A stretch of 58,371 bases of DNA from Alphaproteobacteria bacterium (GTDB lineage: Bacteria; Pseudomonadota; Alphaproteobacteria; Acetobacterales; Acetobacteraceae), in NCBI GenBank assembly GCA_026400815.1, contig JAPLOI010000002.1, positions 1 to 58,371 of the forward strand. The letters are read 5' to 3'. Below are positions 6,396 to 50,341 of this stretch, one piece after another. Position numbers and translations under genes: made by a program. Each line of letters opens with the position of its first letter. Positions within the stretch are counted from its first letter, which is position 1. The notes under the pieces are model-generated. The model ran no database searches, was not told where the DNA came from, and was given only the letters and a program-made list of their open reading frames with translations.

Positions 6396-6442
6396 TCCGA
6401 CGGGAAGCCAAGGCGGGGAAGGCCCCCGCCGGGGTCAGTCGA

Positions 6443-8242
6443 TCAGGCGGTGTACCAATCGGCCAGATCGTAGAGGTTGCTGTCCCAGCCCGAGAGGTTG
6501 ATCTTCAGCCGCTTGCTGACGCCCGAGACGGTCGGGCGATAGACGATCGGGATGAGCACCACGTTCTTGATCACGAGGTCGTTGCACTGGATCAGCAGGG
6601 CAACGCGCTTCACCGGATCGAGCTCGGCTTCGGCCGCGGTGTGCAGAACGTCGTATTCCTTGCTGATCCAGCGGGTGGTGTTGCGGCCCTGCCACTTGTT
6701 CTCCTTGGAGGAGATCTCGGTGGAGAGGAACATCTGCAGCCACACGCCGGGGTCCGGGCGGCCCGGGCCGGTGTTGTACATCTGCAGGTCGGTGTAGAAC
6801 TTCGGGTAGGTGTCCGGGTTCGCCACGTCGGAGGAGAAGAACACCGAGGCGACGACCGACTTGATCTCGATGTCGATGCCGGCGCGGGCGCAAGCCTGCT
6901 TCACGATCGCCTGGGTCTTCTGGCGCGGCTGGTTGATCGAGGTCTGGTAGACATACTTCAGCTTCGCGCCGCCCTTGGCGCGGAAGCCGTCGGAGCCACG
7001 CACCCAGCCGGCGCTGTCGAGCAGGGCGTTGGCCTTGTCGACATTGAACTCGTAGCTGGTGTTGGGCGAGCGGAAGCGCGGCGGGTTGTTCACCCAGTTC
7101 GCGGTGGCGATGCCGGTGCGGCCATAGATGTGGTCCTGAACCGACTTGCGGTCGATCAGCAGGGCCAGGGCCTGGCGCACGGCGGGGTCGGTCAGCGAGG
7201 GGTGCGCCTTCTTCAGGCTGGAGCGCTCGCCGTCCACTTCGGTCCAGGGGTCGGTGTTGTTGAGCTGGAGATGCTCGCAGCCCGCGCCCTCGGTGATCTC
7301 AACGGCACCCTTGCCGCCGCGCTCCAGGCGCTGCAGCACTTCGTCTTCCACCTGCAGGTTCCAGGCGAAATCATACTCGCCGGTCTGCAGCACGGCGCGC
7401 GCCGCGGAGACGGCATCGCCGCCGCCCTTCATCTCGATGCTGTCGAAATACGGGCGGTTGGCCACGTGGTAGTCCATGTTGATGTCGCCCAGCACGGTGT
7501 CGCCGGGGCGAAAATCCTTGAACTTGTACGGGCCGGTGCCGACGGGCTTCAGGTTCGCGGGGGCCTCGCGCGACTTGGCGCCCATGAAATCCTGGAAGAG
7601 GTGCTTGGGAATGATCTGGCCGGTGGCGCCCACGAAGGCGTCGGCCCAGAAGGGGTTCGGCTTGTCGAACATCACCTTCACGGTCAGGTCGTTGACCTTC
7701 TCGCACTTGATGTCCTTGTAGCTGCCGCTGGTCACGGCCGCGGTGGCCGGGTCGGCGGCGTACTGCCAGTTGAACACCACGTCATCGGCGGAGAAGGGCT
7801 TGCCGTCGTGCCACTTCACGCCGGGCTTCAGCTTCCAGGTGACGGACATGCCGTCGGCGGCCACGCCACCATTCTCGCGGGTCGGGATCTCGGCGGCGAG
7901 CACGGGCTTGAGGTTGCCGTCGGCATCCCAGGCGGCCAGCGGCTCATAGAACACGCGGCTGCCGTCCTGATCCTTGGTGCCGGTCGCGAAATGCGGGTTC
8001 AGCAGGGTGGGGGCCTGCCACCACAGCACCTTCAGCACGCCGCCGCCGCCACGCTTGGTGGCCTTGGAGGTGGAGGGCACGGTGGAGGCGGACTGCGCCA
8101 TCGCCACGCCGGAATGCATCAGCAGCTGCGTGGCCATCGGCGCGGTGATGCCGACCACGGCCAGGCGCTTCACGAATGCCCGGCGGGCCATACGGCCGGC
8201 ACGGACCTCCTCGATCATCGTACGAAGGTCTTGCTCGTTCAT
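6443..8242 (-). CDS. Peptide ABC transporter substrate-binding protein (family 5), Tat-type signal
   Basis: Periplasmic binding protein that opens the 2474-8242 operon and determines its substrate. The N-terminus carries MARRAFVKRLAVVGI, a twin-arginine motif (RRxFxK) before a hydrophobic stretch, so export is probably through Tat. The body is a normal-order SBP_bac_5 domain: LLNPHFATGTKDQDGSRVFY, then WKLKPGVKWHDGKPFSADDV, the VGTGPYKFKDF turn, and the C-terminal DLVIKNVVLIPIVYRP. The ATG at MNEQDLRT was chosen; the longer upstream frame is Gly/Arg-rich leader. At 599 residues it is slightly larger than DppA. The substrate is unknown. Confidence 0.93.
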   Translation of the reverse strand: MNEQDLRTMIEEVRAGRMARRAFVKRLAVVGITAPMATQLLMHSGVAMAQSASTVPSTSKATKRGGGGVLKVLWWQAPTLLNPHFATGTKDQDGSRVFYEPLAAWDADGNLKPVLAAEIPTRENGGVAADGMSVTWKLKPGVKWHDGKPFSADDVVFNWQYAADPATAAVTSGSYKDIKCEKVNDLTVKVMFDKPNPFWADAFVGATGQIIPKHLFQDFMGAKSREAPANLKPVGTGPYKFKDFRPGDTVLGDINMDYHVANRPYFDSIEMKGGGDAVSAARAVLQTGEYDFAWNLQVEDEVLQRLERGGKGAVEITEGAGCEHLQLNNTDPWTEVDGERSSLKKAHPSLTDPAVRQALALLIDRKSVQDHIYGRTGIATANWVNNPPRFRSPNTSYEFNVDKANALLDSAGWVRGSDGFRAKGGAKLKYVYQTSINQPRQKTQAIVKQACARAGIDIEIKSVVASVFFSSDVANPDTYPKFYTDLQMYNTGPGRPDPGVWLQMFLSTEISSKENKWQGRNTTRWISKEYDVLHTAAEAELDPVKRVALLIQCNDLVIKNVVLIPIVYRPTVSGVSKRLKINLSGWDSNLYDLADWYTA

Positions 8243-8483
8243 GTGAGCCCCCACATTCCTTGTTCCGCCGACCCCATGACACGCGGTTCCCGCGCATCTC
8301 CCAGAATGGTGCCAGCCATGCGTGAGGCGCATATTGCGCCGTAACCCGGGCCCGTCAACAGCAAGGGACGCAACGAATCCAGTTCCGAGCGGAGTTTTTT
8401 TGCGCAAGCCCGCCTCACGCGGCCCCCGCGACGTGGCTGTGTCCTTAACAAATGCTTAACGGTCAGATGCTTGCGGTGCCGTG

Positions 8484-35205: not shown

Positions 35206-36462
35206 TCAGGCCCACTCGCCTCCGCGCATCACTGGCACCGCCGATCCGTCGGCGCTGATCCCGTCCACATCCACTTCGGCCGAGCCGATCATCCAGTCCA
35301 CATGGATCAGGCTGCTGTTGCCGCCGCGGGCGGTGAAGCCGGCCTCGTCCAGCGTGTCCCCGTCCACGAAGCACTTGCGATAGGCCTGGCCCAGCGCGAT
35401 GTGGCTGGCCGCGTTCTCGTCGAACAGCGTGTTCAGGAACAGCATCCCGCTGGCCGAGATTGGCGAGGAGGCCGGCACCAGCGCCACCTCGCCCAGCCGC
35501 TTTGCACCCTCGTCGGTGGCGATCATGCGCTGCAACACTTCCTGCCCGGTGCTGGCATGCGCCTCCACCAGCGCCCCGCCTTCGAACCGCACCCGGATGT
35601 CGCGGATCAGCGTGCCGGCATAGGAAAGCGGCTTGGTGGCCGCCACCGTGCCTTCGGTGCGCGCGGCATGCGGCGTGGTGAACACTTCCTCGGTCGGGAT
35701 GTTCGGGTTGCCCACCACGCCGTTCAGCGCCTTGGATTGCCCGCCCATCCAGGAATGCTGGTCCGCCAGCCCCACCACCAGGTCGGTGCCCGGGCCGCGG
35801 AAGCGCAGTGCGGAGAAGCGCCGCGCATTGAGCATCTCGCGGCGCGACATTAGCTTGGCGTTGTGCGCCGCCCATTCCGCCACCGGATCGGCCGTGTCCA
35901 CTCGCGTGGCCGCGAACAGCGCATCCCACAGCTTCGCCTGCGCCTCGGCCTCCGGCAGTTCCGGGAACACCGCCTTCGCCCAGGCCGGCGCGGCATAGGG
36001 CACCAAGGTCCAGTTGATCGCGGATGACGTGATCAGCTCCAGCGCCGGCTTGTAGGCGGTGGAGCGTGCCCGGTTCGCCCGCGCGATCAGCGCCGGGTCC
36101 TGCCCGGCGAGCAGCCCGGGATCATCGCCCACGATCGCCAGCCGCGCCGCGCCGCGCTTGAAGGCCTCGGCCATGCCCTCGAACAGCCAGCCCGGCGCGG
36201 TGTCGAACGCCTCCGGCGGGGCGTTGCGGTAGCGAGACAATGCCTGCTCGTCGTCATGGAACAGCGTGGTCACCAGGCTTGCCCCGGCGCGATAGGCGGC
36301 ATCGGTGATCAGCCGCGCCAGCGGCAGGGCGTCGATGGAGGAGGTCATCACCAGCTCCTGCCCGGCCTGCAGGTTCAGCCCCACCCGCACAGCCACATCG
36401 GCCAGCCGCGCCAGGCGCTCCTGGTGGCTGTCATTGGCGCCGTGCTGCTTGGTTCCGTCCAT
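35206..36462 (-). CDS. Aminopeptidase, M29 family (AmpS/aminopeptidase T-like)
   Basis: A 418-residue cytoplasmic metallo-aminopeptidase. Metal ligands and active-site segments are seen in NPNIPTEEVFTTPH, LGEVALVPASSPIS, NAASHIALGQAYRKC and LIHVDWMIGSAEVDVDG, in the correct order for M29. It removes N-terminal residues from peptides, using two Co/Zn ions in relatives. GAGGAGAGGCCG precedes the ATG. Together with the M28-like gene just upstream and two peptide importers in the window, it points to peptide use as a nutrient. Confidence 0.93.
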   Translation of the reverse strand: MDGTKQHGANDSHQERLARLADVAVRVGLNLQAGQELVMTSSIDALPLARLITDAAYRAGASLVTTLFHDDEQALSRYRNAPPEAFDTAPGWLFEGMAEAFKRGAARLAIVGDDPGLLAGQDPALIARANRARSTAYKPALELITSSAINWTLVPYAAPAWAKAVFPELPEAEAQAKLWDALFAATRVDTADPVAEWAAHNAKLMSRREMLNARRFSALRFRGPGTDLVVGLADQHSWMGGQSKALNGVVGNPNIPTEEVFTTPHAARTEGTVAATKPLSYAGTLIRDIRVRFEGGALVEAHASTGQEVLQRMIATDEGAKRLGEVALVPASSPISASGMLFLNTLFDENAASHIALGQAYRKCFVDGDTLDEAGFTARGGNSSLIHVDWMIGSAEVDVDGISADGSAVPVMRGGEWA

Positions 36463-36530: not shown

Positions 36531-38267
36531 CTAGCCCGCCGCCGCCACGATGCGGCAAGCCTGATCGATGGCTGCCAGGTAACGGTTCTGCCCGCGCAAC
36601 AGCTCAGTCTGCGCCATCTTGCGCATATGCCCTTCCGCGAACTCCGGCAGTTCCGCAGCCACGGCCAGCGTGGGCAGCGGCGGGACCGTGTAGGCGGGGT
36701 CGTGGCGGAACCGCGCCTCCCGCGTGTAGTTCACCGGCACCAGCACCCGCGCCAGTTCCTGCAGCGCCGCGTTGCGCTTCTCCACCGGCGCGGCCGACAG
36801 CCCGGCCAGCGCGGCCTTCAACGCCTCCGTCGCCGCGCGCGCCGGGCCGAGATCGGCCAGCCCCTGGCTCGCCTTCTCATAGCCGGCGATGGTGGCCAGG
36901 AACTCATCGCAGGTGGCCGACCAATCGAACGGCAGCACCTCGGCATTCGCCACCCGCAGCACCGACAGAAGATAGATCTTCATGTCGGTCATCAGGATGT
37001 TGCGGTCCGCGATCTCCAGCTGGTCGTTCTCGGTGTGCCAGGCGATGTTCGCCCCGCAACCAGACACGTCGTAGTAGCCTTTCTCCGCCCGCAGCGCGTC
37101 CGGCATGGTGGAGCTGAGCATGAAGAAGCTCGGCAGGCCGATATTGTTGAAGCTGTAGTCACCGGCCTGCGGCGGGCGATGGATGGCCACCACGGCATCC
37201 GGCACGATGTCGCGGATCGCCGCCTCGGTCAGGGAGGCGCATTCGCTGAAGGCGCGCGTGTCGTGGTAACTGGTCGCCCAACGGCAGCCGGGCGAATCGC
37301 AGTTCACCTGCGCCACGCAGTTGCGGTCCAGATCCATGGCGAAGGCATCGGTGAACCAGGTGGAACCGGCATAGCGCCCGGTGGAATGGCCGGGCCACCA
37401 GGCGATCTTCACGCTGCGGCGCAGCCCGTCGCGATGCTTCCAGAACACGCGGGCCAGTTCCAGCAGCGTGGCGTCGCCGGTGGCGTTGTCGCCCACGCCC
37501 ACATCCCAGCTGTCGAGATGCCCGTGCACCATCACGAACTTCTCCGGCTCCACCGTGCCGGGAATGGTCACCACCGGGATCTTCTGCGCGAACCAGCCTT
37601 CCACCAGGTCGGTGCGGATGGTGGCCTCCCCGCCCTGGTCGGCCAGCGCCATCAGCTTCTGCCCGTCCGGGTTGTTCACGGCCACCACTGGGATCTTCGG
37701 CTTGCGGCCCCAATCCTGCAGGTCCGGGCTGCCCCAGATCGTGGTGCAGGTGCCCCAGTGGATGTCCGTGCCGGGGTTCACCGCGATCAGCCCGATGCCG
37801 CCCCATTCCTCGATCAGGCTGGTCAGCGCCGGGTTGCCGAAGCCCTGGATCACCACGATGTTGCCGCCCACCAGCGCACGCACCTCCTCCACGGAGGAGA
37901 TGGAGCCGCCGAACAGCGTCTTGATGTCGCGGTTGTAGCTGCGCAGCGCCTTCGGGTTGGCCGTCAGCTTCACCAGCTTGCCGGTGCGCCCGCCCGGCAC
38001 CGGCAGGGCCGAGGAGGGCGGCTTGGCGCGATAGGTGATCCCGCCGGCGCTCACCGAGGCGGCGTAGGGAATCGAAAGATAGATCTCCGGCTGATGCACC
38101 TCAACCGGAATGCCCTCGCCGCGCAGGCGTTCCACCAGCGCATCCATGCCGCGGTTCACGTCCTCCGGGCGCCAGCGCGGCATGCCGGAGAAATGCTCCA
38201 CCAGCCCCCAGGGCAGGTCAATGGTTACTTCGTCCACGAAACGGCGTTCGGCTTCACTAATTGGCAT
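36531..38267 (-). CDS. M28 family peptidase-like protein with altered catalytic motif
   Basis: A 578-residue protein with a PA-type insert (about residues 95-235) and an M28 core. Zinc ligands are recognisable: HGHLDSWDVGVGDNATGDA (His250, Asp252, Asp260), Asp324 in NCDSPG, and the late His in AWHTENDQLE. The usual GEE motif, which supplies the general base and a ligand, reads GHSTGRYAGS at 293-302, so both glutamates are missing. It may be an inactive or chemically altered branch. No signal peptide is seen. GGAG precedes the ATG. It is divergent from the permuted binding-protein operon. Confidence 0.85.
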   Translation of the reverse strand: MPISEAERRFVDEVTIDLPWGLVEHFSGMPRWRPEDVNRGMDALVERLRGEGIPVEVHQPEIYLSIPYAASVSAGGITYRAKPPSSALPVPGGRTGKLVKLTANPKALRSYNRDIKTLFGGSISSVEEVRALVGGNIVVIQGFGNPALTSLIEEWGGIGLIAVNPGTDIHWGTCTTIWGSPDLQDWGRKPKIPVVAVNNPDGQKLMALADQGGEATIRTDLVEGWFAQKIPVVTIPGTVEPEKFVMVHGHLDSWDVGVGDNATGDATLLELARVFWKHRDGLRRSVKIAWWPGHSTGRYAGSTWFTDAFAMDLDRNCVAQVNCDSPGCRWATSYHDTRAFSECASLTEAAIRDIVPDAVVAIHRPPQAGDYSFNNIGLPSFFMLSSTMPDALRAEKGYYDVSGCGANIAWHTENDQLEIADRNILMTDMKIYLLSVLRVANAEVLPFDWSATCDEFLATIAGYEKASQGLADLGPARAATEALKAALAGLSAAPVEKRNAALQELARVLVPVNYTREARFRHDPAYTVPPLPTLAVAAELPEFAEGHMRKMAQTELLRGQNRYLAAIDQACRIVAAAG

Positions 38268-38394
38268 GGGGGCACTCCAACTTCTGCATCGCAATGGCTA
38301 CACTGATTCCGTGTCGCAGCAAGATGGGGGCTTGCGGGGCGGCGCAGGCGCGCGTTGAATGCAGTGCAACATGAACCTTGCAGGGGGTCTTTTG

Positions 38395-40065
38395 ATGAAG
38401 CGGCACGTTGTCGCGGCCATGGCGGTCGCCGGTTTGGTCACCTCCCTGCCGGTCTCGGCGCAACCGGCGGGCGACCCGGTCCGCACCCTCGTGCTGCTCG
38501 CCCAGCCCCAGGCCGCCCTGCCGCAGGAATACCAGGCCGCGGAACTGATCGCCGCCGCGTGGCGCCAGCTGGGCCTGCAGGTGCAGATCCGCCCGCTGCC
38601 CAGCCAGCAGTTCAGCCAGATCGTGTGGTACGAGCGCCAGCGCTGGGACACCACCACCTGGCAGATGGTCGGCCGGCCCGAGCGCAGCGACCCCGATGAG
38701 CTGACCTACAACCTGTTCCTGTCGGCCAACATCGCCAACGGCTACAACTTCGTCGGCTACAACAACCCGGAATATGACCGCCTCGCCAACGCCCAGCGCG
38801 AAGAGCTGGACGTGGCCAAGCGCAAGCAGCTGATGATCCAGGCGCAGGAACTGGTGAACCGCGACCAGCCCTACGGCTTCATGGTGCATCCCAAGAACGT
38901 CGTCGCGTTCAACAAGAACGTGTGGGACGAGAAGAGCATCGTCGACCAGGCCGGCATCGGCGCGCGCAACACCTGGACATGGCTCTCGATCGCCCCGCTC
39001 GGCGCCCAGCGCGACATCATCCTCAATTCCGTCTCCACCCCCACCAACCTCAACCCGTTCAATATTTCGGGCGCGCAAGGGTCCTGGGCGGCGGAGATCA
39101 CCTGGGACCGTTTGATGCGCATCGGCACCGACGGCCTGCCGCAGCCCTGGTCCGCCGAAGCCGTGACCCGTCCGGATCCCCTCACCGTGGACGTGAAGCT
39201 GCGCGCCGGCATGAAGTGGAGCGACGGCAGGCCGATCACGATCGAGGATGCCGTGTTCAGCCTCGTGGCCCCCGGCATTGGCGATAAGTCGCCGATGTAC
39301 AAGCCCTTCGTGGCCAACATCGCCAGCGTGACCGCCACCGGCACGGATACGCTGCGCATCACGCTGAAGAAGCCGGATGCCGCCTTCCTCGTCTCCTCGC
39401 TCGCCAAGCTCAACCTCGCGCCAAAGCATGTGTGGGAGCCGATCTTCCAGTCGCTGCAGGGCAAGCCCGAAACCGCCGAGAGCGTGATGGAAAGCACCCC
39501 GGTCAGCTCCGGTCCGTTCCGCATGGTCAAGGCCAAGCTGAACGAGGAGATCGTACTGGAAGCCAACCGCGACCATTGGGCCGCCCCCAAGGCCGCGCGC
39601 TGGATCATGCGCATCCAGCCCAACACGGAAGCCGCCCTCGGCGCCCTGCGTTCCGGCGAGATCAACTTCCTCGCCGACTACAACGGCGACCCGCAGATCC
39701 TGCGCGACATCGCCAAGGCCGATCCCAAGATCAAGATCGCCGAGGCGCTGGACATGGGCTTCAAATTCATCGCCTACAACCATCGCCGCCCGCCGTTCAA
39801 CAGCACCCCGTTCCGCCAGGCCCTGTCCGCCTCGATCGACCGCGAGCTGCTGGCCGAGGATGCCTGGGGTGGCGCGGCCGTGCCCTCCAACTCCTGGGTC
39901 TCGCCGGCACTCACCTTCTGGCACGACCAGGGCATCGAGAAGCGCGTGCCCGGCGGCAATGTGGAAGCGGCCAAGAAGATCCTGAAGGATGCCGGCTTCG
40001 TGCTGGTCAATGGCCGCCTGCACTACCCCGCCGGGGTCAAGGAAACCACCGCGCCGTTCCAGTGA
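38395..40065 (+). CDS. Circularly permuted family-5 (peptide) ABC substrate-binding protein
   Basis: Periplasmic receptor of the 38395-43919 importer; signal peptide MKRHVVAAMAVAGLVTSLPV, cleavage near VSA-QP. The domain order is rotated. Residues 30-180 match the usual C-terminal lobe (AELIAAAWRQLGLQVQI, RSDPDELTYNLFLS, GYNNPEYDRL, QAQELVNRDQP). Residues 205-556 match the usual N-terminal and middle parts (TPTNLNPFN, KLRAGMKWSDGRPITIEDAV, PVSSGPFRM, FRQALSASIDRE). The protein ends after AAKKILKDAGF, where the normal fold would continue into the first segment. AGGGGG before the ATG at 38395 decided the start. Confidence 0.88.
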   Translation: MKRHVVAAMAVAGLVTSLPVSAQPAGDPVRTLVLLAQPQAALPQEYQAAELIAAAWRQLGLQVQIRPLPSQQFSQIVWYERQRWDTTTWQMVGRPERSDPDELTYNLFLSANIANGYNFVGYNNPEYDRLANAQREELDVAKRKQLMIQAQELVNRDQPYGFMVHPKNVVAFNKNVWDEKSIVDQAGIGARNTWTWLSIAPLGAQRDIILNSVSTPTNLNPFNISGAQGSWAAEITWDRLMRIGTDGLPQPWSAEAVTRPDPLTVDVKLRAGMKWSDGRPITIEDAVFSLVAPGIGDKSPMYKPFVANIASVTATGTDTLRITLKKPDAAFLVSSLAKLNLAPKHVWEPIFQSLQGKPETAESVMESTPVSSGPFRMVKAKLNEEIVLEANRDHWAAPKAARWIMRIQPNTEAALGALRSGEINFLADYNGDPQILRDIAKADPKIKIAEALDMGFKFIAYNHRRPPFNSTPFRQALSASIDRELLAEDAWGGAAVPSNSWVSPALTFWHDQGIEKRVPGGNVEAAKKILKDAGFVLVNGRLHYPAGVKETTAPFQ

Positions 40066-40110: not shown

Positions 40111-41106
40111 ATGAGCCGCTCCGGCTTCCTGCGCCTTGTGGCCGAGCGGCTGGGGTTCCTGGTGCTGACGGTGTGGATCACCACCACCGTCACCTTCCTG
40201 CTCTTCCGCCTGATGCCGGGCGACCCCACGCTCGCCTACCTCTCGCCCACCTTCAACGAGGAAACGCGCACCGCCCTGCTGCGCAGCTTCGGCCTCGACA
40301 AGCCGCTGTGGGAGCAATACCTGATCTACATGGGCCGCTTGCTGCAGGGGGATCTCGGCACCTCGTTCCTGCAGCGCGTGCCGGTCTCCCAGTTGCTGGC
40401 CGATGCGCTGCCGAACACGATTATTCTAACTCTGGTGGCGCTCTCCATCGCCTACGCCTTCGGCATCGTCGCCGGCGCCTTCCTCGCCTTTCAGCGCGGC
40501 CGCGGGATCGAGGGCTTCGCGATCCCCGCCGCCCTGGCCACGCGCTCAGCCCCGGAATTCTGGCTCGGCATGCTGCTGCTCGCGGGGCTCGCCTTCCAGC
40601 TCGGCTGGTTCCCCACCGGCGGCGCCGTGCCGCCCGGCTCCAACCTCGGCGGCATCGGGGATCGCCTCGCCTCGCCGGAGTTCTGGCGCCATCTGTTCCT
40701 GCCCGCGCTCACCCTCGTGCTCTACCTCCAGGGCCTGCCGCTGCTTCTGATGCGCGCCACCATGCTGGAGGTGATGAACGACGAGTTCATCGTTATGGCG
40801 CGCATGAAGGGCCTGTCGCGCTGGTCCATCGTCATGCGCCACGCCGCGCGCAACGCGCTGCTGCCGGTCGTCACCGCCTTCGCCCTCGGCCTTGGCGCCA
40901 GCGTGGGCGGCAATGTGGTGGTGGAAACCGTGTTCGCCTGGCCCGGCGTCGGCCGCGTGCTGGTGCAGGCGGTGCAGGGCGCCGACTACCCCGTGGCGCA
41001 GGGCGCCTTCATCCTCATCTCCGTTGTGCTGGCCACCATGAACACCGTCGCCGACCTGCTCTACGCCGCGCTCGATCCCAGGGTGTCCGTCGGTGCGCGC
41101 CGCTAG
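40111..41106 (+). CDS. Peptide ABC transporter permease, DppB-like
   Basis: A 331-residue permease. The first helix is ERLGFLVLTVWITTTVTFLL, followed by FRLMPGDPTLAYL and LGLDKP-like FGLDKPLWEQYLIYMGRL, all typical of DppB. The EAA loop is EFIVMARMKGLSRWSIVMRH, and the end LLYAALDPRVSVGARR is normal. It follows the permuted binding protein by 45 bases and overlaps the DppC-like gene by 14 bases. It forms the membrane pore with that subunit. Confidence 0.94.
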   Translation: MSRSGFLRLVAERLGFLVLTVWITTTVTFLLFRLMPGDPTLAYLSPTFNEETRTALLRSFGLDKPLWEQYLIYMGRLLQGDLGTSFLQRVPVSQLLADALPNTIILTLVALSIAYAFGIVAGAFLAFQRGRGIEGFAIPAALATRSAPEFWLGMLLLAGLAFQLGWFPTGGAVPPGSNLGGIGDRLASPEFWRHLFLPALTLVLYLQGLPLLLMRATMLEVMNDEFIVMARMKGLSRWSIVMRHAARNALLPVVTAFALGLGASVGGNVVVETVFAWPGVGRVLVQAVQGADYPVAQGAFILISVVLATMNTVADLLYAALDPRVSVGARR

Positions 41107-41953
41107 GGCCGCGTGGCGCTTCCTGCGCAGCGAGCCCTTCGCATTCGTGGGGGCGGCGATCTATGCGCTGATCGTGGTCACCGCCATCTTTGCCGACAAG
41201 CTGGCCCCGCATGATCCGCGCGAGATCCTGCGCGTCGGCCGGCGCGTGGCGCGCTACCTGCCGATCTCGCCGGAGCACTGGCTTGGCACCACCTCCAGCG
41301 GGCGCGACGTGCTGAGCCAGCTGATCTGGGGCACCCGCTCCGCGCTGCAGGTCGGCCTCACCGCCGCCATCGTCGTCGTCGCCATAGGCACGCTGATGGG
41401 CCTGCTCGCCGGTTATCTTGGCGGCTGGGTGGACAAGCTGATCACACGCTTGGCGGACATCGTGCTCAGCATGCCCTTCCTGCCCTTCATGCTGGTGCTC
41501 GCCGCCCTCACCACGCCCGGCACCACGGTGGTGGTCGCCTGCGTCGCCCTGCTGCTCTGGCCCAACACCGCCCGAGTCATCCGCAGCCAGGTGCTGTCGC
41601 TGCGCGAACGCGCCTGGGTGGAAGCCGCGCGCGTGACGGGCTGTTCCAACACCCGCATCATGTTCGTCCATATCCTGCCGCAAGTGCTGCCGCTCGCGGC
41701 CCTCTATGGCTCTGTGGCGATCGGCTGGGCGATCCTGGCCGAGGCCTCGGCCAGCTTCCTCGGCTTCGGCGACCCGGACACCATCAGCTGGGGCGTGATG
41801 CTGCAGGAGGCCTACGCCAACCAGGCCCTCGGCCGCGGCGCCTGGAACTGGTTCACCCCGCCCGGCCTGGCCATCGTCTCCATGGTGCTCGCCGGCTTCA
41901 TGATCTCCCGCGGCTCCGAAAAGCTGCTGTTCCCGAAACTGGCGGATAAATGA
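41093..41953 (+). CDS. Peptide ABC transporter permease, DppC-like
   Basis: A 286-residue inner-membrane permease. HWLGTTSSGRDVLSQLIWGT is the conserved segment after the first helix, and the EAA loop is AWVEAARVTGCSNTRIMFVH. LAEASASFLGFGDPDTISWG precedes the final helices. The GTG start lies inside the DppB-like gene, a coupling overlap of 14 bases; its stop overlaps the next ATPase start (ATGA). Confidence 0.93.
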   Translation: MRAARAAWRFLRSEPFAFVGAAIYALIVVTAIFADKLAPHDPREILRVGRRVARYLPISPEHWLGTTSSGRDVLSQLIWGTRSALQVGLTAAIVVVAIGTLMGLLAGYLGGWVDKLITRLADIVLSMPFLPFMLVLAALTTPGTTVVVACVALLLWPNTARVIRSQVLSLRERAWVEAARVTGCSNTRIMFVHILPQVLPLAALYGSVAIGWAILAEASASFLGFGDPDTISWGVMLQEAYANQALGRGAWNWFTPPGLAIVSMVLAGFMISRGSEKLLFPKLADK

Positions 41954-42963
41954 GCCTGCTCAGCGTCGAGAACCTCCAGGTCCATTACCGCACCGGCGCC
42001 GGCCCAGTGCGCGCGGTGGATGGCGCCACCTTCTCCGTGGCCGCCGGCTCCATCCTCGGCCTCGTCGGCGAATCCGGCTGCGGCAAGTCCACCCTGGGCC
42101 GTGCCATCATGGGCGTGTTGCCCGATGCCGGGCGCATCGCCGGCGGCAGCGTGGTGTTCGAAGGCCGCGACCTCGTCGCCCTCACCGAAGCCCAGCGCCG
42201 CGAAATCCGCTGGCGCCGCCTCTCCTTCATCCCGCAAACCGCGATGAACGCGCTGGATCCCGTGCAGCGCCTGCGCGCCCAGATGCTGGAAGTGCTGATG
42301 GAACGCGGCGGCCTCGCCCGCGCCGCCGCCAACGATCGCGCCGCCGAGCTGTTCCGCATGGTTGGGCTGGATCCCGTGCGCCTGGCCGACTACCCGCACC
42401 AGTTCTCCGGCGGCATGCGCCAGCGCGCCTCGATCGCCCTCGCCCTCGCGCTCAATCCCGCTTTGGTCATCGCCGACGAACCCGTCACCGCGCTCGATGT
42501 CATCGTGCAGCGCCAGGTGCTGGATGTGATGCGCGACCTGCAATCGCGCCTCGGCCTGGCCATGATCCTCGTCACCCACGACATGGCCGTCGTCGCCTAT
42601 GCCTGCGACCGCGTGGCGGTGATGTACGCCGGGATCGTGGTGGAATCCGGCCCGGTGCGAGAGGTGCTGGAACGCCCGCTGCACCCCTACACCATGGGCC
42701 TCACCCACGCCTTCCCCGATGTCCACGGCGAAACCGGCGAGCTGGTGCCCATCGAGGGCTCGCCCCCCAACCTGCTGCACCCGCCCACCGGCTGCCGCTT
42801 CGCCGCCCGCTGCCCCTTCGCGCAAACCCGCTGCCACGAACAGGCCCCGCCCGCCGTCACCGAGGGCGAACACATGGTCGCCTGCTGGCGCGCCGACGAA
42901 GCCTCGGCCCTGCGCACGGCCGCCGCCAGCCCCGCCACCTGGGCCGCCGTGGTGCCCGCATGA
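41950..42963 (+). CDS. Peptide ABC transporter ATPase, DppD/OppD-like
   Basis: A 337-residue ATP-binding subunit. Walker [10 protein letters not shown], the Q-loop [17 protein letters not shown], signature [15 protein letters not shown], Walker [13 protein letters not shown], and H-loop [12 protein letters not shown] are all intact. The C-terminal [14 protein letters not shown] cluster is typical of the OppD/DppD family. It overlaps its neighbours by four bases on each side, so the operon is tightly coupled. Confidence 0.95.
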
Positions 42964-43919
42964 GCGCCGTGATCGAAGCCCGCGGCCTGGGCAAAACCTT
43001 CCGCACCGGCCGGCGCACCGTGCACGCCGTGCAGGACGTTTCGCTCGCGGTCTCCGCCGGGGAGGCGCTGGGCATCGTCGGCGAATCCGGCTGCGGCAAG
43101 ACCACCACCGCCCGCATGCTGCTGCGCCTGGAGGAACCCACCGCCGGCCAGGTGATCTTCGAAGGCGAGGACATCACCCACCGCCGCGCCGCCGCGCTGC
43201 TGCCCTTCCGCGCCCGCGCCCAGCTCGTGTTCCAGAACCCGTTCGATGCGCTGAACCCCCGCTTCACCATCCGCCGCACCCTGGCCGAGCCGCTGCGCAA
43301 TTTCGGCATCCCCGAAGCCGAGCACGCAGCCCGCATCGATGCCGTCATGGGCCGCGTCCGCCTCACCCCCGCCAGCGCCTGGCTCGATCGCTTCCCGCAC
43401 GAACTCTCCGGCGGCCAACTCCAGCGCGTGGTGCTGGCCCGCGCCCTCATCCCCGGCCCGCGCCTCATCGTGGCGGATGAGCCGGTGTCGATGCTCGATG
43501 TCTCCGTCCGCGCCGGCATCCTCAACCTGCTGCGCGCCGCCCGCGACGAACTCGGCCTCGCCGCCATCTACATCAGCCACGACCTCGCCCTGATCCGTTA
43601 CGTCTGCGAGCGCACCGTCGTGATGTATCTCGGCCGCATCGTGGAGGAAGGCCCCACGGCGGAACTCATCTCCTCCCCGCGCCACCCCTACACCCGCGCC
43701 CTCGTCGCCGCCGTTCCGGTGCCGCGCGTCGATCAAGACCGCGCCGCCCTGCCGATCCGCGGCAGCCTGTCCGACACACCGCAAGGCGGCACCGGCTGCG
43801 CCTTCCGGGACCGCTGCCCACACGCCATGCCCCGCTGCGAGGCGGAAGCACCCGCCCTGCGCGAAGCCGGCCCAGCCCGCCGTGTCGCCTGCCATCTTGA
43901 GGAGGGAGCCCCATCGTGA
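42960..43919 (+). CDS. Peptide ABC transporter ATPase, DppF/OppF-like
   Basis: A 319-residue ATP-binding subunit that completes the second peptide importer. Walker A GESGCGKTT, the Q-loop LVFQNPFDALNPRFTIR, signature LSGGQLQRVVLARAL, Walker B LIVADEPVSMLD and H-loop SHDLALIRYVCE are present, with a C-terminal CAFRDRCPHAMPRC cluster. The stop overlaps the GTG start of hyuB (GTGA), which ties this transporter directly to the hydantoinase genes in one transcript. Confidence 0.95.
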   Translation: MSAVIEARGLGKTFRTGRRTVHAVQDVSLAVSAGEALGIVGESGCGKTTTARMLLRLEEPTAGQVIFEGEDITHRRAAALLPFRARAQLVFQNPFDALNPRFTIRRTLAEPLRNFGIPEAEHAARIDAVMGRVRLTPASAWLDRFPHELSGGQLQRVVLARALIPGPRLIVADEPVSMLDVSVRAGILNLLRAARDELGLAAIYISHDLALIRYVCERTVVMYLGRIVEEGPTAELISSPRHPYTRALVAAVPVPRVDQDRAALPIRGSLSDTPQGGTGCAFRDRCPHAMPRCEAEAPALREAGPARRVACHLEEGAPS

Positions 43920-45673
43920 GCACCTGCGACCCCATCACGCTGGAAATCATCCGCGGCGCCGTCCGCGCCGCCCAGGCCGAGATGGAGGCGCTGCTGGAGC
44001 GCACCGCCATCAGTGCCTTCATCCGCGAAAAGAAGGATTTCTACACCGCCCTGCTGGATGCCGACGGCGTCATGGCGGTCGGCTCCAACGTGCCGGTCTT
44101 CGGCGATGTCTGCGGCCCCGTGCTGAAGAAATTCCCGATCGAGACCATCAAGCCCGGCGACCTCTACTGGTATTCCGATTGCTACGGCAGCCGCGGCGCC
44201 GTCTCCCACACCAACGACCAGGTCTTCCTCGCCCCCGTTTTCGTCAACGGTGAGCGTTGCGCCTTCGTCATGGGCTGGGCCCATTTCTCCGATGTCGGCG
44301 GCCTGCGCCCCGGCTCCATCTCGCCCGATGCCACCGACCATTTCCAGGAAGGCATCATCATCCCGCCCACCAAGCTGATCGACCAGGGCACCACCAACAC
44401 CGCCGCCCTCGATATCTTCTACCGCAACTCCCGCTACCCCGAGACCTGCAAGGGCGATACCCGCGCACTGATGGGCAGCGTGGATCTCGGCGTGCGCCGC
44501 ATGCAGGAAATCGCCACCCGTTTCGGCACCGATATCCTGGCCGACGCCCTGGCCCAGCTCCTCGCCCGCACCGAAGCCCTCGTCCGCCAGCGCCTGCGCG
44601 AAACCTTCCCGGTCGGCACCCACAAATTCACCGATGCGATCGACAGCGACGGCCACGGCACCGGCCCGCTGCACATCCGCTTCGCCCTCACCCGCACCCC
44701 GGATGACCGCTTCATCCTGGACGCATCAGAGACCGACGACCAGGCCCCTGGCCCGGTCAACTACCTCATGAACCCCGACATGCCCGGCACCGCCTTCGCG
44801 CTCACCTTCCTCGGCGGCGATCCCGGCCAGGTCTGCAACGCCGGCGGCGCCCGCGCGCTGGATGAGGTGATCCTGCGCGAAGGCTCCCTGCTCTACCCCC
44901 GCTCCCCCGCCCCCTTGGGCATGCGCGGCATGACCATGATGCGCGTGCTCGCGGCGCTGAACGGCCTCATCAACGTCGCCGGCTCCCCGGCGCCGGCCGC
45001 CCATTCCGCCTACATCATCATCCTCATGCGCGGCACCGCCAACGGCAAACCCTTCCTCCTCAGCGACGGCCTCGGCGTCGGCTACGGCGCCCGCCCCACC
45101 GCCGATGGCATCGACGCGGTCTACTTCGTCGCGCAGGAGAACTACCCGGTCGAGTTCCTCGAACTCGGCTACCCCGTCCGCCTCAACACCTACGCCATAC
45201 ACCGCGACAGCGGTGGCGCCGGCCGCCAGCGCGGCGGCTGCGGCATCATCCGCGAATACGAAGTGCTGGCCGACGAAGCCGTGCTCGCCGTGCGCATCGA
45301 CAGCGTGGTCTGCCCCCCCTGGGGCACCCAGGGCGGCCTCTCCGGCGGCACCGGCCGCGCCATCGTCAACCCCGGCCGCCCCAACGAACGCCTGCTCCGT
45401 CCGCTGTCCGATGGCAACAAGGTCAAGAAGGGCGACATCCTGCGCATCGAAACCGGCGGCGGTGGCGGCCACGGCCACCCCTATGACCGCCCACCCGAAG
45501 CCGTGCTGCAAGACGTGGCCGACGGCTTCGTCTCGGTCGAAGCCGCCGCCCGCCTCTACGGCGTGATCATCCGCGAAGGCGTGCCCGACCCCGCCGCCAC
45601 CGCGGCCGCCCGTGCCACAAGGCCCGCCAGCCGGGCGTTCCATCGCGTTGAATATGTCGACGCACTTGTTTGA
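43916..45673 (+). CDS. hyuB: Hydantoinase B / 5-oxoprolinase beta-type subunit
   Basis: A 585-residue HyuB-family protein, partner of HyuA in ATP-dependent opening of five-membered cyclic amides (N-methylhydantoin, hydantoin, 5-oxoproline or acetone-carboxylase relatives). Signatures are DPITLEIIRGAVRAAQAEME at the start, ERTAISAFIREKKDFYTALL, SHTNDQVFLAPVF, and RDSGGAGRQRGGCGIIREYE followed by the glycine-rich TGGGGGHGHPYDRPPEAV near the end. The length is normal. The GTG start overlaps the ATPase gene. It is separated from hyuA by 156 bases of AT-rich hairpins, unusual in this compact operon. Confidence 0.94.
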   Translation: MSTCDPITLEIIRGAVRAAQAEMEALLERTAISAFIREKKDFYTALLDADGVMAVGSNVPVFGDVCGPVLKKFPIETIKPGDLYWYSDCYGSRGAVSHTNDQVFLAPVFVNGERCAFVMGWAHFSDVGGLRPGSISPDATDHFQEGIIIPPTKLIDQGTTNTAALDIFYRNSRYPETCKGDTRALMGSVDLGVRRMQEIATRFGTDILADALAQLLARTEALVRQRLRETFPVGTHKFTDAIDSDGHGTGPLHIRFALTRTPDDRFILDASETDDQAPGPVNYLMNPDMPGTAFALTFLGGDPGQVCNAGGARALDEVILREGSLLYPRSPAPLGMRGMTMMRVLAALNGLINVAGSPAPAAHSAYIIILMRGTANGKPFLLSDGLGVGYGARPTADGIDAVYFVAQENYPVEFLELGYPVRLNTYAIHRDSGGAGRQRGGCGIIREYEVLADEAVLAVRIDSVVCPPWGTQGGLSGGTGRAIVNPGRPNERLLRPLSDGNKVKKGDILRIETGGGGGHGHPYDRPPEAVLQDVADGFVSVEAAARLYGVIIREGVPDPAATAAARATRPASRAFHRVEYVDALV

Positions 45674-45829: not shown

Positions 45830-47845
45830 ATGACCTCACTCTCCGTCGCGGTCGACATCGGCGGCACCTTCACCGACGTCACCCTCCAGGATGCCGCCTC
45901 CGGCCAGGCCTGGCGTGCCAAAACGCCCTCGGTCCCATCCGACCCAAGCCTCGCCTTCATCACCGGCGTGCGCCTTGCGCTGGAGGCCGCCGGCCGCCCG
46001 GCGCAGCAGGTTACCCGCGTGCTGCACGGCACCACGGTCGCCACCAACCTCATTCTGGAGGGCAAGGGCGCCACCGCCGCCCTGGTCACCACCGCCGGCT
46101 TCCGCCACGTGCTGGAAATCGGCCGGCAGGACATTCCGCGCCGCGCCAACCTCTATTCCTGGATCAAGCCCGCCCGCCCCGTGCCGCCCTCCCGCATCCT
46201 GGAAGTGGTGGAGCGCGTCGGCCCCGGCGGCAGCGTCGTCACCCCGCTTGATGAGGCCTCGGTGGCTGAAGCCGCCGAAGCCTGCCGCCGCCTCGGCGTC
46301 TCCGCCGTCGGCGTCTGCCTGCTGCACAGCTTCGCCCACCCGGCGCATGAACTGCGCGTGGCCGAGTTGCTGCGCGCCGCCCTGCCCGGAATCGCCGTCA
46401 CCGCCTCGGTGGATGTGCTGCCCGTGGTGCGCGAATACGAACGCAGCCTGGCCACCATCCTCAACGCCAGCGTCATGCCCGCCGTCTCCACCTATGTCGC
46501 CCGGCTGGAACAGCGCCTGGCAGAGGAAGGCATCGCCGCCCCGCTGCTGCTGATGCAATCGAATGGCGGCGTCGCAGGGGCTGCCACCATCCGCCGCGCC
46601 CCCGCCGTCACCGCGCTGTCCGGCCCCGCCGCCGGCGTGGTGGGCGCGCTGCAGGTCGCCCAGGTGGCCGGGATCGGCAACATCATCACCGTCGATATCG
46701 GCGGCACCAGCGCCGATATCTGCCTGATCAAGGATGGCCGGATCGGCCTCACCCAGCAGGGCCGCGTCGGCGAATGGCCACTGCCCCTGCCGATGGTAGA
46801 CATGATCACGGTCGGCGCCGGCGGCGGCTCCATCGGCCGCGTGGCGGATGGCGCCCTCACCGTCGGCCCCGCCAGCGCGGGCGCGGAACCCGGGCCAGCC
46901 TGCTACGGCCGCGGCGGCACGCTCGCCACCACCACCGACGCGCATGTCGCCCTCGGCCACCTGCCCCCTTCGCTGCTCAATGGCCGCATGACGCTGGACA
47001 CGGGCAAGGCCGAAGCCGCCATCCAGGCCAACGTCGCCACCCCGCTCGGCCTGCCCCTGCACGAAGCCGCCCGCGGCATGCTGGCGATCCTGGACAGCAA
47101 CATGGTCGGCGCAATCCGCGTGGTCAGCGTCGAACGCGGGCACGACCCGCGGGACTTCGCCCTGGTCGCCTTCGGCGGCGCCGGCCCGCTGCATGGCTGT
47201 GCGCTCGCCGACCTGCTCGGCATCACCCGCGTGCTGGTCCCCCCCGCCCCCGGCGTGCTCTGCGCCGAAGGCCTGCTCGCCGCCAACATGCGCACCGAAT
47301 TCCACCGCACCCTGCCCACCGCCGGCCTGCCGCCGGATGGCACCGCGCTCGCCGTCCTCGCCGCCCTGCACGCCGACGCCCAGGCCTGGTTCGCCGCCGA
47401 ACAGGTGCCGGAGACGGATCGCCGCACAGAGGAAATGGCCCTGCTGCGCTACGAAGGCCAGGGCAGCGAGCTCACCGTCCCCTGGTCCGGCACCGTCGCC
47501 GCCACGGTGGAAGGCTTCGCCGCCGCCCACAAGGCGCTCTATGGCTTCACGCTCGATGCCCCCGGGGAACTCGTCACCCTGCGCGTGGAAGCCATCGGCC
47601 GCCTGCCAGACCCGGTCATGCCCCAGCTCGGCGCCCTGCCCGCCCCCACGCCCGCCAGCCACCGCACCGTCCATTTCGCTGCCGGAACGCGGGAAACCCC
47701 GGTGTTCGACCGCGCTACCCTCGGCGCCGGCCTGCGCCTGCCCGGCCCCGCCATCGTCACCCAGCTCGATGCCACCACCCTCGTCCCCGCCGGCTGGACC
47801 ATCGCGATGCACCCCTCCGGCGCCATGATCCTGGAACGCGCCTAG
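45830..47845 (+). CDS. hyuA: Hydantoinase A / 5-oxoprolinase alpha-type subunit
   Basis: A 671-residue ATPase-fold subunit that phosphorylates or activates the cyclic amide. Its two actin-like phosphate motifs are AVDIGGTFTDVTLQDAA near the N-terminus and TVDIGGTSADICLIKDG in the middle. VLHGTTVATNLILEGKGA, LMQSNGGVAGA, LSGPAAGVVGAL, VGAGGGSIG and LVAFGGAGPLHGCALAD are family blocks, and the length is standard. It acts with HyuB. The permease gene starts three bases after the stop. The substrate is unknown; N-methylhydantoin is suggested by the sarcosine-oxidase-like gene nearby. Confidence 0.94.
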   Translation: MTSLSVAVDIGGTFTDVTLQDAASGQAWRAKTPSVPSDPSLAFITGVRLALEAAGRPAQQVTRVLHGTTVATNLILEGKGATAALVTTAGFRHVLEIGRQDIPRRANLYSWIKPARPVPPSRILEVVERVGPGGSVVTPLDEASVAEAAEACRRLGVSAVGVCLLHSFAHPAHELRVAELLRAALPGIAVTASVDVLPVVREYERSLATILNASVMPAVSTYVARLEQRLAEEGIAAPLLLMQSNGGVAGAATIRRAPAVTALSGPAAGVVGALQVAQVAGIGNIITVDIGGTSADICLIKDGRIGLTQQGRVGEWPLPLPMVDMITVGAGGGSIGRVADGALTVGPASAGAEPGPACYGRGGTLATTTDAHVALGHLPPSLLNGRMTLDTGKAEAAIQANVATPLGLPLHEAARGMLAILDSNMVGAIRVVSVERGHDPRDFALVAFGGAGPLHGCALADLLGITRVLVPPAPGVLCAEGLLAANMRTEFHRTLPTAGLPPDGTALAVLAALHADAQAWFAAEQVPETDRRTEEMALLRYEGQGSELTVPWSGTVAATVEGFAAAHKALYGFTLDAPGELVTLRVEAIGRLPDPVMPQLGALPAPTPASHRTVHFAAGTRETPVFDRATLGAGLRLPGPAIVTQLDATTLVPAGWTIAMHPSGAMILERA

Positions 47846-47847
47846 AC

Positions 47848-48663
47848 GTGTCCGCCGTCCGCCCCGCGCCCCGGCAGCGCCGCCACACCGGCCGAACGCT
47901 GCTGGAAGTCGCCGCCTTCGCCGCGATCGCCGTGGCACTCGCATGGCTCGTCGTGCGCGGCGCCGGCGCCATGCCCTATCGCTGGCAATGGGAACGCGTG
48001 CCCAGCTACCTCTACAAAACCTATGACGGCGCCTTCTATCCCGGCCCGCTGCTGCGCGGCCTCGGCGTCACGCTCTGGATCTCCGCCGCCGCCTTCGCCA
48101 CCACGCTGGCCGCCGGCCTCGCCGCCGCCATGCTCGCCCTCTCCCCGTCGCCGGTCGGAAGGGCACTATCGCGCGGCTATGTGGAGCTGGTGCGCAACAC
48201 GCCGCTGCTGGTGCAGATCTACCTGTTCTACTTCGTCCTCGCCCCCATCCTCGGCATCGGGCGGGAGGCCACGGGCATCCTCGCCCTCGGCCTGTTCGAA
48301 GGCGCCTTCGCGGCCGAGATCATCCGCGCCGGCATCGCCGCCGTGCCGCGCGGCCAGCGCGAGGCCGCGGAAAGCCTCGGCCTCTCCCCCTGGCGCGTGC
48401 AGCGCCACGTCATCCTGCCGCAGGCGCTGCGCATCGTGCTGCCGCCGCTGGCCTCGCTCGCCATCAGCCTCGTCAAGCATTCCGCCATCGTAAGTGCCAT
48501 CGCCATCTTCGATCTCGCCAACGAGGCCCGCTCGATCATCGCGGACACCTTCCTCACCTTCGAGATTTGGCTCACAATCGCCGCCATCTACCTGGTCGTC
48601 ACCCTCATCCTGTCCGGCCTCGCCCAGCTCCTGGAGCGGCGGCTCGCGACCGGACGCCACTGA
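47848..48663 (+). CDS. Polar amino-acid ABC transporter permease (HisM/GlnP type)
   Basis: A 271-residue inner-membrane permease. LLRGLGVTLWISAAAFATTL opens the transmembrane domain, YVELVRNTPLLVQIYLFYF is the family signature, and the EAA loop is GQREAAESLGLSPWRVQRHV. The GTG start lies two bases after the hyuA stop; the longer frame on the same strand is a hyuA shadow. It is paired with a second permease at 49385-50341, as in systems with two different permeases. No ATPase gene of this class is in the window. Confidence 0.92.
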   Translation: MSAVRPAPRQRRHTGRTLLEVAAFAAIAVALAWLVVRGAGAMPYRWQWERVPSYLYKTYDGAFYPGPLLRGLGVTLWISAAAFATTLAAGLAAAMLALSPSPVGRALSRGYVELVRNTPLLVQIYLFYFVLAPILGIGREATGILALGLFEGAFAAEIIRAGIAAVPRGQREAAESLGLSPWRVQRHVILPQALRIVLPPLASLAISLVKHSAIVSAIAIFDLANEARSIIADTFLTFEIWLTIAAIYLVVTLILSGLAQLLERRLATGRH

Positions 48664-48674
48664 AAGCATCCCGC

Positions 48675-49478
48675 ATGAAGCGCCGCTCCCTCCTGCTCGC
48701 CACCCCCGCCCTGATCCTCGCCGCCCCCGCCCTCGCCCAGGCCCCCGCCGCCATGGTGGACGAGGTGAAGAAGCGCGGCGTGCTGCGCTCCGGCCTGTCC
48801 ACCTTCGTGCCCTGGGCCATGCGCGACAAGAACGGCGGCCTGATCGGCTTCGAGCTGGATGTCGCCCGCCGCCTCGCCGAAGACTGGGGCGTGAAGCACG
48901 AGCCGGTGCCCACCGCGTGGGACGGCATCATCCCCGCCCTGCTGGCTGGCAATTTCGATGCGATCATCGGCGGCATGACAGTCACGCCCCAGCGCGAAGC
49001 CAGCGTGGACTTCACGGAGGCCTATTCCTTCACCGGCGTGCACTTCGCCGCCAACAAGAAGGTCGCCCCCGGCCTCACCGCCATGGAGGGCCTGAACAAG
49101 CCCAGCATCACGCTCGCCGCCCGCCGCGGCACCAACGCCGCTACCGTGGTGCAGCAGATGCTGCCGCTGGCCACCCTGCGCCAGTTCGACGACGACGCCC
49201 AGGCGCTGCAGGAAGTGCTGAACGGCAACGCCGCCGCCTGGTTCACCTCCACCCCCAAGCCCGCCTTCGCCGTGCTGGACAACCCGGACACGCTGTACCT
49301 CCCGGTCGCCAAGCCCGTCGTCGGCCAGCGTGATGCCATGGCGCTGCGCAAGGGCGACACCAAGTCCGTCGCCGCGCTCAACGAATGGATCGCCGCCCGC
49401 AAGGCCGATGGCTTCCTGGCCGAGCGCTTCAGCTACTGGTTCGAGAAGCGCGACTGGCGCGCCCTGGTGCAAAGCTGA
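48675..49478 (+). CDS. Polar amino-acid ABC transporter substrate-binding protein (family 3)
   Basis: A 267-residue periplasmic receptor with signal MKRRSLLLATPALILAAPAL (cleavage near LAQ-AP). Family-3 blocks are seen: VKKRGVLRSGLSTFVPWAM, IGFELDVARRLAEDWGV, WDGIIPALLAGNFDAIIGGM and TPQREASVDFTEAY. It likely binds an amino acid or amide derived from, or fed to, HyuAB. It lies between the two permease genes in the hyu operon, 11 bases after the first. Confidence 0.93.
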   Translation: MKRRSLLLATPALILAAPALAQAPAAMVDEVKKRGVLRSGLSTFVPWAMRDKNGGLIGFELDVARRLAEDWGVKHEPVPTAWDGIIPALLAGNFDAIIGGMTVTPQREASVDFTEAYSFTGVHFAANKKVAPGLTAMEGLNKPSITLAARRGTNAATVVQQMLPLATLRQFDDDAQALQEVLNGNAAAWFTSTPKPAFAVLDNPDTLYLPVAKPVVGQRDAMALRKGDTKSVAALNEWIAARKADGFLAERFSYWFEKRDWRALVQS

Positions 49479-50341
49479 AGCGCCATAAACTAGGCTGGCT
49501 GGACGCCGCGCTGCTTCTCCTGCTCGCGGCGGCCGCCTTCCTGATCGCCTGGCGCGTCCAGGCGGTGCTCAACTACCGCTGGAACTGGGCGCCGATCCCC
49601 AACTGGATCATCCGCTGGGATGCGGAGCGTGGCTGGGTGGCCAACCTGCTGCTGCAGGGGCTGCTAAACACGCTGCGCCTCGCCCTCTGGGGCATGCTGC
49701 TCGCCACCCTCTTCGGCCTCGTCGTCGGGCTTGCCCGCACGGCGCGGTCGCTGCTGCCGCGCCTGCTGGCCGGCAGCTACGTGGAGCTGATGCGCAACAC
49801 CCCGCCGCTGGTGCTCATCTTCGTCGGCTACTTCTTCGTCTCCAGCCAGATCATGCCGCTGCTGGGCATCGATGCCTTCCTGGCCTCCGCCTCGCCCGGC
49901 ACGCTGGCCGCGGTCTCGTTCGGCTTCGGCGACCCGCGCCTGCTCAAGAACTTCCTCTCCGCCCTCATCGTGCTGGCCCTGTTCGAAGGCGCCTATATCG
50001 CGGAGATCCTGCGCGCCGGCATCCAGTCCATCCCGAAGGGCCAGTGGGAAGCCGCCGCCGCGCTTGGCCTCACGCGCACTCAGATCATGCGCACCGTCAT
50101 CCTGCCCCAGGCCCTGTCGCGCATGCTGCCGCCCTTCGCCGGGCAGTTCATCTCGCTCATCAAGGACAGTTCGATCGTCTCGCTGATCTCGGTGCAGGAC
50201 CTCACCTTCATGGCCAACGACATCGCGGTCTCCACCGGCCGCGTGTTCGAAACCTGGATCACCGCCTCGGCCTTCTACCTCGTGCTCTGCCTCGGCCTCT
50301 CGCTCGCCTTCCGCCGCCTGGAGCGCCGCGCCACAGGCTAG
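49385..50341 (+). CDS. Polar amino-acid ABC transporter permease (second subunit)
   Basis: Permease of the HisQ/GlnP type with a longer periplasmic insert. LDAALLLLLAAAAFLIAWRV is the first helix, SYVELMRNTPPLVLIFVGYF the signature, and the EAA loop is GQWEAAAALGLTRTQIMRTV. The start is uncertain: ATG at 49385 adds 30 unlikely residues that overlap the binding-protein gene, while the protein more naturally begins near LKRHKLGW at 49475, where only CTG is available (CTGA overlap with the previous stop). Its stop overlaps the convergent oxidase gene's stop (shared CTAG). Confidence 0.88.
   Translation: MDRRPQGRWLPGRALQLLVREARLARPGAKLKRHKLGWLDAALLLLLAAAAFLIAWRVQAVLNYRWNWAPIPNWIIRWDAERGWVANLLLQGLLNTLRLALWGMLLATLFGLVVGLARTARSLLPRLLAGSYVELMRNTPPLVLIFVGYFFVSSQIMPLLGIDAFLASASPGTLAAVSFGFGDPRLLKNFLSALIVLALFEGAYIAEILRAGIQSIPKGQWEAAAALGLTRTQIMRTVILPQALSRMLPPFAGQFISLIKDSSIVSLISVQDLTFMANDIAVSTGRVFETWITASAFYLVLCLGLSLAFRRLERRATG

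Follow-up and report, generated by a model that had tools for sequence, protein, structure and literature searches.

The window, by which we mean the whole stretch of 58,371 nucleotides analysed here, encodes what we consider, with a probability of roughly 93%, to be a natural circular permutant of a cluster C solute-binding protein (SBP_bac_5; DppA, OppA and NikA). Judged by sequence homology, the protein derives from SBP_bac_5, and by its topology it is a permuted variant of that family. Its open reading frame is intact: starting from the ATG at 38395, it is translated into 556 amino acids, in which an apparent signal peptide is followed by the segment that usually ends a member of the family (residues 30–180, approximately) and then by the segment that usually begins one (about residues 205–545). 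The collinear order expected of SBP_bac_5 members is absent. Related bacteria and haloarchaea share this arrangement, which makes it look like an ancient natural change in the order of the fold and not like a sequencing mistake. The coordinates of the gene, its parts and its neighbours are compiled in the table. An antisense open reading frame of 686 amino acids overlaps the same DNA; it is taken to be a mirror frame of the high-GC sequence.

Table. Permuted binding-protein gene of the window, its segments and the neighbouring genes.
Feature	Coordinates	Strand	Basis or remark
Circularly permuted SBP_bac_5 solute-binding protein gene, 556 aa	38395..40065	+	ORF and translation, swapped-order matches, rotation scan
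Signal peptide, residues 1-22	38395..38460	+	MKRHVVAAMAVAGLVTSLPVSA, judged by eye
Relocated segment, residues 27-200	38473..38994	+	Homology with the last third of a linear SBP_bac_5 protein
Junction between the former C- and N-termini, residues 178-210	38926..39024	+	Linear-profile comparison; rotation peak at residue 203
Segment homologous to the first two thirds of a linear SBP_bac_5 protein, residues 205-545	39007..40029	+	Profile and Pfam
New C-terminal tail and stop	40030..40065	+	In the loop through which linear relatives continue
DppB-type permease	40111..41106	+	Pfam BPD_transp_1 1.2e-37
DppC-type permease	41093..41953	+	Pfam BPD_transp_1 7.5e-25, OppC_N 3.7e-07
DppD-type ATPase	41950..42963	+	Pfam ABC_tran, oligo_HPY
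DppF-type ATPase	42960..43919	+	Pfam ABC_tran, oligo_HPY
Hydantoinase B/oxoprolinase	43916..45673	+	Pfam Hydantoinase_B 4.9e-125; likely same operon
Hydantoinase A/oxoprolinase	45830..47845	+	Pfam Hydantoinase_A 1.2e-86; likely same operon
M28 peptidase, divergent	36531..38294	-	Pfam Peptidase_M28 1.5e-12
M29 aminopeptidase neighbour	35206..36462	-	Pfam Peptidase_M29 1.9e-155

The Pfam model SBP_bac_5 (PF00496) matches the window protein with 202.5 bits against a cut-off of 32.4 (E 1.5e-59) in two stretches, the best of which places residues 249–542 on profile positions 2–285 of 368. Full phmmer alignments were examined for three PDB chains (3m8u, 1xoc and 6i3g). On 3m8u, residues 211–535 of the query align with chain positions 7–342 and residues 39–180 with 357–493; on 1xoc, residues 207–540 align with 23–349 and residues 78–176 with 404–499. 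For both of these chains the two stretches are significant and swapped; 6i3g likewise displays the swapped order, its second stretch being weak (i-Evalue 0.33). When a profile of 24 permuted proteins was compared with the PDB, the best stretch among the 60 listed of 107 matches lay at query positions 201–550 and fell on the N-terminal part of the chain; none of these 60 chains looked permuted. Significant matches were obtained only to SBP_bac_5 and its subfamily models: homology to MglB and the sugar-binding type I was not encountered, and matches to CDP-diacylglycerol pyrophosphatase were weak and below the cut-off (E 0.13 and 0.051).

A linear profile of 487 positions was built from 13 linear paralogs encoded in the source genome. 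Profile positions 13–337 correspond to residues 211–546 of the window protein and positions 342–467 to residues 45–177, and the profile sees a single copy of each segment, in line with a preceding sequence-only reading of this DNA. A global rotation scan against this profile yields a score of 63 for the native order and a best score of 263 when the protein is started at residue 203; 20 shuffles have a mean of -70 (SD 7.4). That reading had also described the domain as rotated relative to the usual arrangement, and both this gain and the two significant, swapped PDB alignments out of three bear it out. At the corresponding site, all 24 aligned proteins (the window protein and 23 relatives) gain 187–222 units. 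Linear proteins behave differently: the best scores of the controls L024 and L025 lie within about 5 and 8 units of the native order, respectively, and four jackknifed linear paralogs score best at the native order or at most 1 bit from it. A local-score version of the scan gave no clear answer for several relatives, since the way in which HMMER links the two matches varies, and the global version was used instead. Furthermore, when eight linear homologues were supplied to MAFFT as N- and C-terminal fragments, the C fragments were placed mainly at residues 28–178 and the N fragments at 205–552; the exceptions are short misplaced fragment tails, and trimming the fragments further worsened the alignment.

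The joint between the two segments comprises 33 residues in the window protein, compared with 32 expected from the linear profile. Across 51 permuted proteins, the median number of extra residues at this site is 3 (range -4 to +6), and the match of the C-segment begins at profile position 323–345 in all of them except L092, where it begins at 379. As far as the profile comparison shows, the old C-terminus has been fused nearly directly to the old N-terminus, and the new termini were opened in the loop beyond the ILKDAGF helix and the hairpin after that helix. The sequence-only reading had let the protein end after KKILKDAGF, which needs correction: a further 21 residues follow, which pass through a predicted beta-hairpin. 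Both new termini probably lie in the part that corresponds to domain III of DppA. If so, the export signal would be on the lobe opposite to that of DppA. The four archaeal permuted proteins possess, as judged by eye, a twin-arginine-like start followed by a lipobox-like cysteine, and the probable lipid anchor of the haloarchaeal members would likewise be on the lobe opposite to that of DppA. By crude pattern matching, Tat-like motifs occur in 19 and lipobox-like motifs in 5 of the 51 permuted proteins.

Structure prediction depended on the alignment supplied. With 24 rows, including linear homologues cut into two fragments, AlphaFold2 returned a model with a mean pLDDT of 82.1 and a pTM of 0.81; with eight rows of permuted proteins alone, the model was poor (pLDDT 47.5). 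The best PDB match of the former according to Foldseek is the oligopeptide-binding protein 1xoc (E 2.2e-17), with a TM-score of 0.51 by query length over 374 columns of 534 residues. Among the best 50 rows listed, where peptide-type binding proteins come first, TM-scores by query length range from 0.43 to 0.54 over 344–411 columns; partial coverage of this kind is expected if a sequential aligner can match one part only. The predicted model is compatible with a normal fold with relocated termini, the outcome that the sequence-only reading had proposed to look for. We propose that the permuted polypeptide would fold as an ordinary two-lobed Venus-flytrap receptor, would be exported from its N-terminus, and would bind its ligand between the lobes and hand it, in the manner of linear homologues, to the importer encoded next to it. 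From conservation, selection and operon context, we infer that the permuted receptor is functional.

The genomic setting is that of an SBP_bac_5-type importer, i.e. DppB/DppC permeases and DppD/DppF ATPases with oligo_HPY domains. The order of genes in the window is binding protein, DppB, DppC, DppD, DppF, hydantoinase B and hydantoinase A, with the M28 and M29 peptidase genes divergent; the intact transporter operon recognised by the sequence-only reading was retrieved by Pfam as DppBCDF-type genes at 40111–43919. For 30 loci, the surroundings of the permuted gene were compared with the genes of the window, some of these loci being near-copies of it (e.g. L016 and L017). All four DppBCDF-like genes are found near the permuted gene in 23 of the 30, some of them archaeal, and in four more (L020, L092, L102 and L107) the set is incomplete at the end of the available stretch. 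In L104 and L105, the transport gene sets are distant or on the other strand. L110 is a rearranged importer locus, with the permuted gene and a DppF-like gene on one strand and DppBCD-like genes on the other. In L114, two permuted genes (at 7580 and 13231; G388:C1:5144579-5151885) flank one DppBCDF set, which suggests that two permuted receptors share one importer. The permuted protein of Halorussus halophilus (L092, 5146–7119) is longer, with 657 amino acids, and genes for a CoA transferase and a CoA ester lyase are located between it and the permeases.

Homologues of the M28 peptidase occur near 16 of the 30 permuted loci and homologues of hydantoinase A or B near 13; neither is present at the four archaeal loci. 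Annotated neighbours there comprise creatininase-family and M20-type genes (L078), dipeptide epimerase, D-aminoacylase and M81 genes (L079), and threonine/serine dehydratase, amidohydrolase and gamma-glutamyltransferase genes (L084). The peptidases, the hydantoinase/5-oxoprolinase genes and these archaeal neighbours hint weakly at short peptides or cyclic amino-acid derivatives as the cargo of the permuted receptor. Genes of two further importers lie in the window. A second peptide-type transporter lies on the reverse strand at 2474–8407, with an oligo_HPY ATPase (2474–4249) and a linear SBP_bac_5 protein (6443–8407), and downstream of the hydantoinase genes an amino acid-type importer is represented on the forward strand by an SBP_bac_3 protein followed by an overlapping permease ORF (48567–50341).

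A scan of genome contigs confirmed 11 loci, of which eight match across the joint in permuted order (L016–L023) and three are linear. Among the eight, L021 is interrupted and L023 is cut by the end of its contig. The three distant matches (L024–L026) proved linear on inspection and were discarded as permuted relatives; two of them, L024 and L025, served as the controls mentioned above. In the genus, a whole-genome search gave a match in six of nine genomes, the source genome included, and none in G119 (96% complete), G212 (88%) and G1203 (68%); the gene is therefore not universal even in the genus. At broader ranks, again with the source genome included, the counts are lower bounds, because the large searches scored three or four candidates per genome. 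The family gave matches in 32 of 299 genomes (E<=1e-100), those in G055, G105 and G004 being incomplete. For the order the figure is 30 of 395 (E<=1e-50), every match within the same family; for the class it is 14 of 385 (E<=1e-40), from 11 families including the source family, with G585 covering one part only; and for the phylum it is one of 398 (E<=1e-28), which is the source genome itself. The genome draws for these five ranks overlap. With a more distant member as query, 13 of 385 genomes of the class were matched.

In 72,556 plasmid records, the window protein (P0001) retrieved 19 at E<=1e-30, each with a place covering at least 80% of the query, and a Halalkalicoccus homologue retrieved 37, of which 35 reach at least 80% coverage and 23 are haloarchaeal by name. 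Carriers include Neorhizobium, Ketogulonicigenium, Nitratireductor and haloarchaea, and several records are titled complete. The homologue search by which the sequence-only reading had hoped to gauge the breadth of the branch thus extends it over Alphaproteobacteria and haloarchaea. Viral-contig scans made to widen the alignment found few binding proteins. When segment order was assigned with the linear profile, 63 open reading frames were permuted, 34 linear and 13 partial, with L090 and L091 left out; for loci outside this check, the permuted order rests on collinear tblastn matches. In the source genome (G000), tblastn of the window protein gives 89 matches, some of which are two pieces of one gene; linear relatives dominate, and the window gene alone matches across the permuted query. 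For a genome of 5.1 Mb, this is a very large set of SBP_bac_5 receptors. Permuted copies with an in-frame stop or broken frames occur in relatives (L021/L043, L047, L055 and L061) and are either pseudogenes or draft-assembly errors. Two records labelled 'MAG: Asaia bogorensis' (L018 and L019) share 98% and 89% identity with the window protein, and this label looks doubtful.

Phylogenetic trees were inferred from 51 permuted and 29 linear proteins. Twelve of the 63 permuted reading frames (L016–L021, L027–L029, L043, L047 and L058) were dropped as interrupted, as coming from the same assembly as a kept row or as 86–99% identical to the window protein; from the 34 linear ones, L088 (a duplicate of L077) and the second reading frames of L006, L008, L032 and L093 were removed. 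The 13 partial reading frames were unused, and L090 and L091 are unclassified. Whether built from the N-part, from the C-part or from the two combined, the tree splits all 51 permuted proteins from the 29 linear ones, with support values of 0.98, 0.94 and 0.99, respectively. This topology fits a single origin of the permuted order within the sampled proteins, and the identical split in both part trees fits one parent gene. The nearest linear protein within the sample is L099 from Meiothermus. In the joined tree, the haloarchaeal L079, L084 and L092 cluster together, and L078 from Halalkalicoccus is placed with the alphaproteobacterial L071–L075 and L080, which suggests that the permuted gene moved between bacteria and archaea. 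Pairwise dN/dS ratios of 0.055–0.25 (five pairs, each with the window gene) show, at the level of coding sequence, that the gene is under purifying selection. The permuted order probably arose when the gene was duplicated in tandem and in frame and then lost its outer parts, while a signal peptide was retained or regained. An intermediate with a duplicated gene was not encountered among the sampled loci; L076, considered as one for its long N-terminal extension, was dismissed, since the profile sees one copy per part.

One rival reading is an ordinary linear SBP_bac_5 protein misread by eye through weak motif matching; in its favour, linear relatives are in the majority among the 89 matches in the source genome. 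The significant swapped-order matches to PDB chains and to the linear profile, together with a rotation gain of about 200 units, leave this reading hardly any probability; a full-length collinear match to a linear family, which the sequence-only reading had named as the result that would speak against it, was found in none of the Pfam, PDB and linear-profile comparisons, and we reject the collinear interpretation. We likewise reject an assembly artefact or a locally rearranged pseudogene, the former of which had been raised by the sequence-only reading and both of which we regard as very improbable. The assembly of the window is a draft of 89 contigs and several relatives carry interrupted copies, but an identical order recurs in independent MAGs and in plasmid records, several of them titled complete, and the low dN/dS ratios are at odds with a pseudogene.

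Slightly more weight, although still very little, is due to a fusion from two binding proteins or a domain-swapped oligomer, in which the parts would not complete one fold. An intramolecular permutant and a swapped oligomer would show one and the same segment order; against the rival stand the N-part and C-part trees, which separate the same two sets of proteins, the joint almost without linker and the fairly confident monomer model. It is also improbable, to a marginally lesser degree, that the permuted protein no longer feeds a transporter and acts as a periplasmic sensor or chaperone. The two permuted genes around one DppBCDF set in L114 and the displaced or split transport genes of L104, L105 and L110 could be read in this way, but importer genes are nearby in most of the 30 loci and cut off by the stretch end in the four named above. 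We thus favour the circular permutant. It is probable, with less certainty than for the permutation itself, that this is a separate permutation, the first in the peptide/nickel class: one ancient event, now represented in Alphaproteobacteria and haloarchaea, passed between the domains of life, with the signal or anchor transferred from lobe I to lobe II and still working with ordinary DppBC.

Natural permutants have been published for two other classes of binding proteins, so the window protein is no first for binding proteins overall. According to the accessible part of PMC4990184, TpMglB-2 (Tp0684) is a circularly permuted glucose-binding lipoprotein, proposed as 'Type Ic / Cluster Bc', and its authors raise an adaptation to membrane anchoring as a possible reason for its topology. 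Like the window protein, it represents a natural, conserved permutation of an ABC-importer binding protein, and it keeps ligand binding. In contrast to the window protein, it belongs to the sugar-binding type I (cluster B), has another cut site and occurs chiefly in treponemes and Gram-positive bacteria; sequence conservation between its permuted part and normal homologues is poor, whereas both parts of the window protein are recognisable by sequence (PMC4990184, same part). CPSARST, as described in the available portion of PMC2395249, groups glycine betaine-binding proteins, molybdate-binding proteins and CysB into a circular-permutation family. Here too, binding proteins are related by permutation and their ligand pocket is conserved, but the relationship concerns other classes, was found by structure comparison and shows less than 24% identity for any pair (PMC2395249). 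In what is accessible of PMC2588589, SBP_bac_5 is mentioned, and permutation occurs in a reference title only. With cluster C proteins (PF00496: DppA, OppA, AppA, NikA and GbpA), the window protein shares homology in both segments and similar operon partners; it differs in that the segments are swapped and that the chain begins and ends in the loop that follows the ILKDAGF helix and its hairpin, no longer at the usual ends of the family. A natural circular permutation in SBP_bac_5 or cluster C was not found in the open-access papers searched, most subscription papers being outside the search.

In large binding proteins, circular permutation is usually made in the laboratory, for instance for biosensors. 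The permuted receptors constitute a natural experiment on a protein some 530 residues long; dozens of copies exist in living organisms, next to linear paralogs encoded by the same genome. They let one ask which lobe may hold the membrane anchor, whether segment order matters for export and folding, and whether docking to DppBC limits topology, and they provide a cut site, already proven in nature, for permuted peptide sensors. They are also a warning for annotation: plasmid records name the gene 'ABC transporter substrate-binding protein', and one also 'hypothetical protein'. If our interpretation is true, these proteins deserve a subclass of their own, 'cluster C, permuted'.
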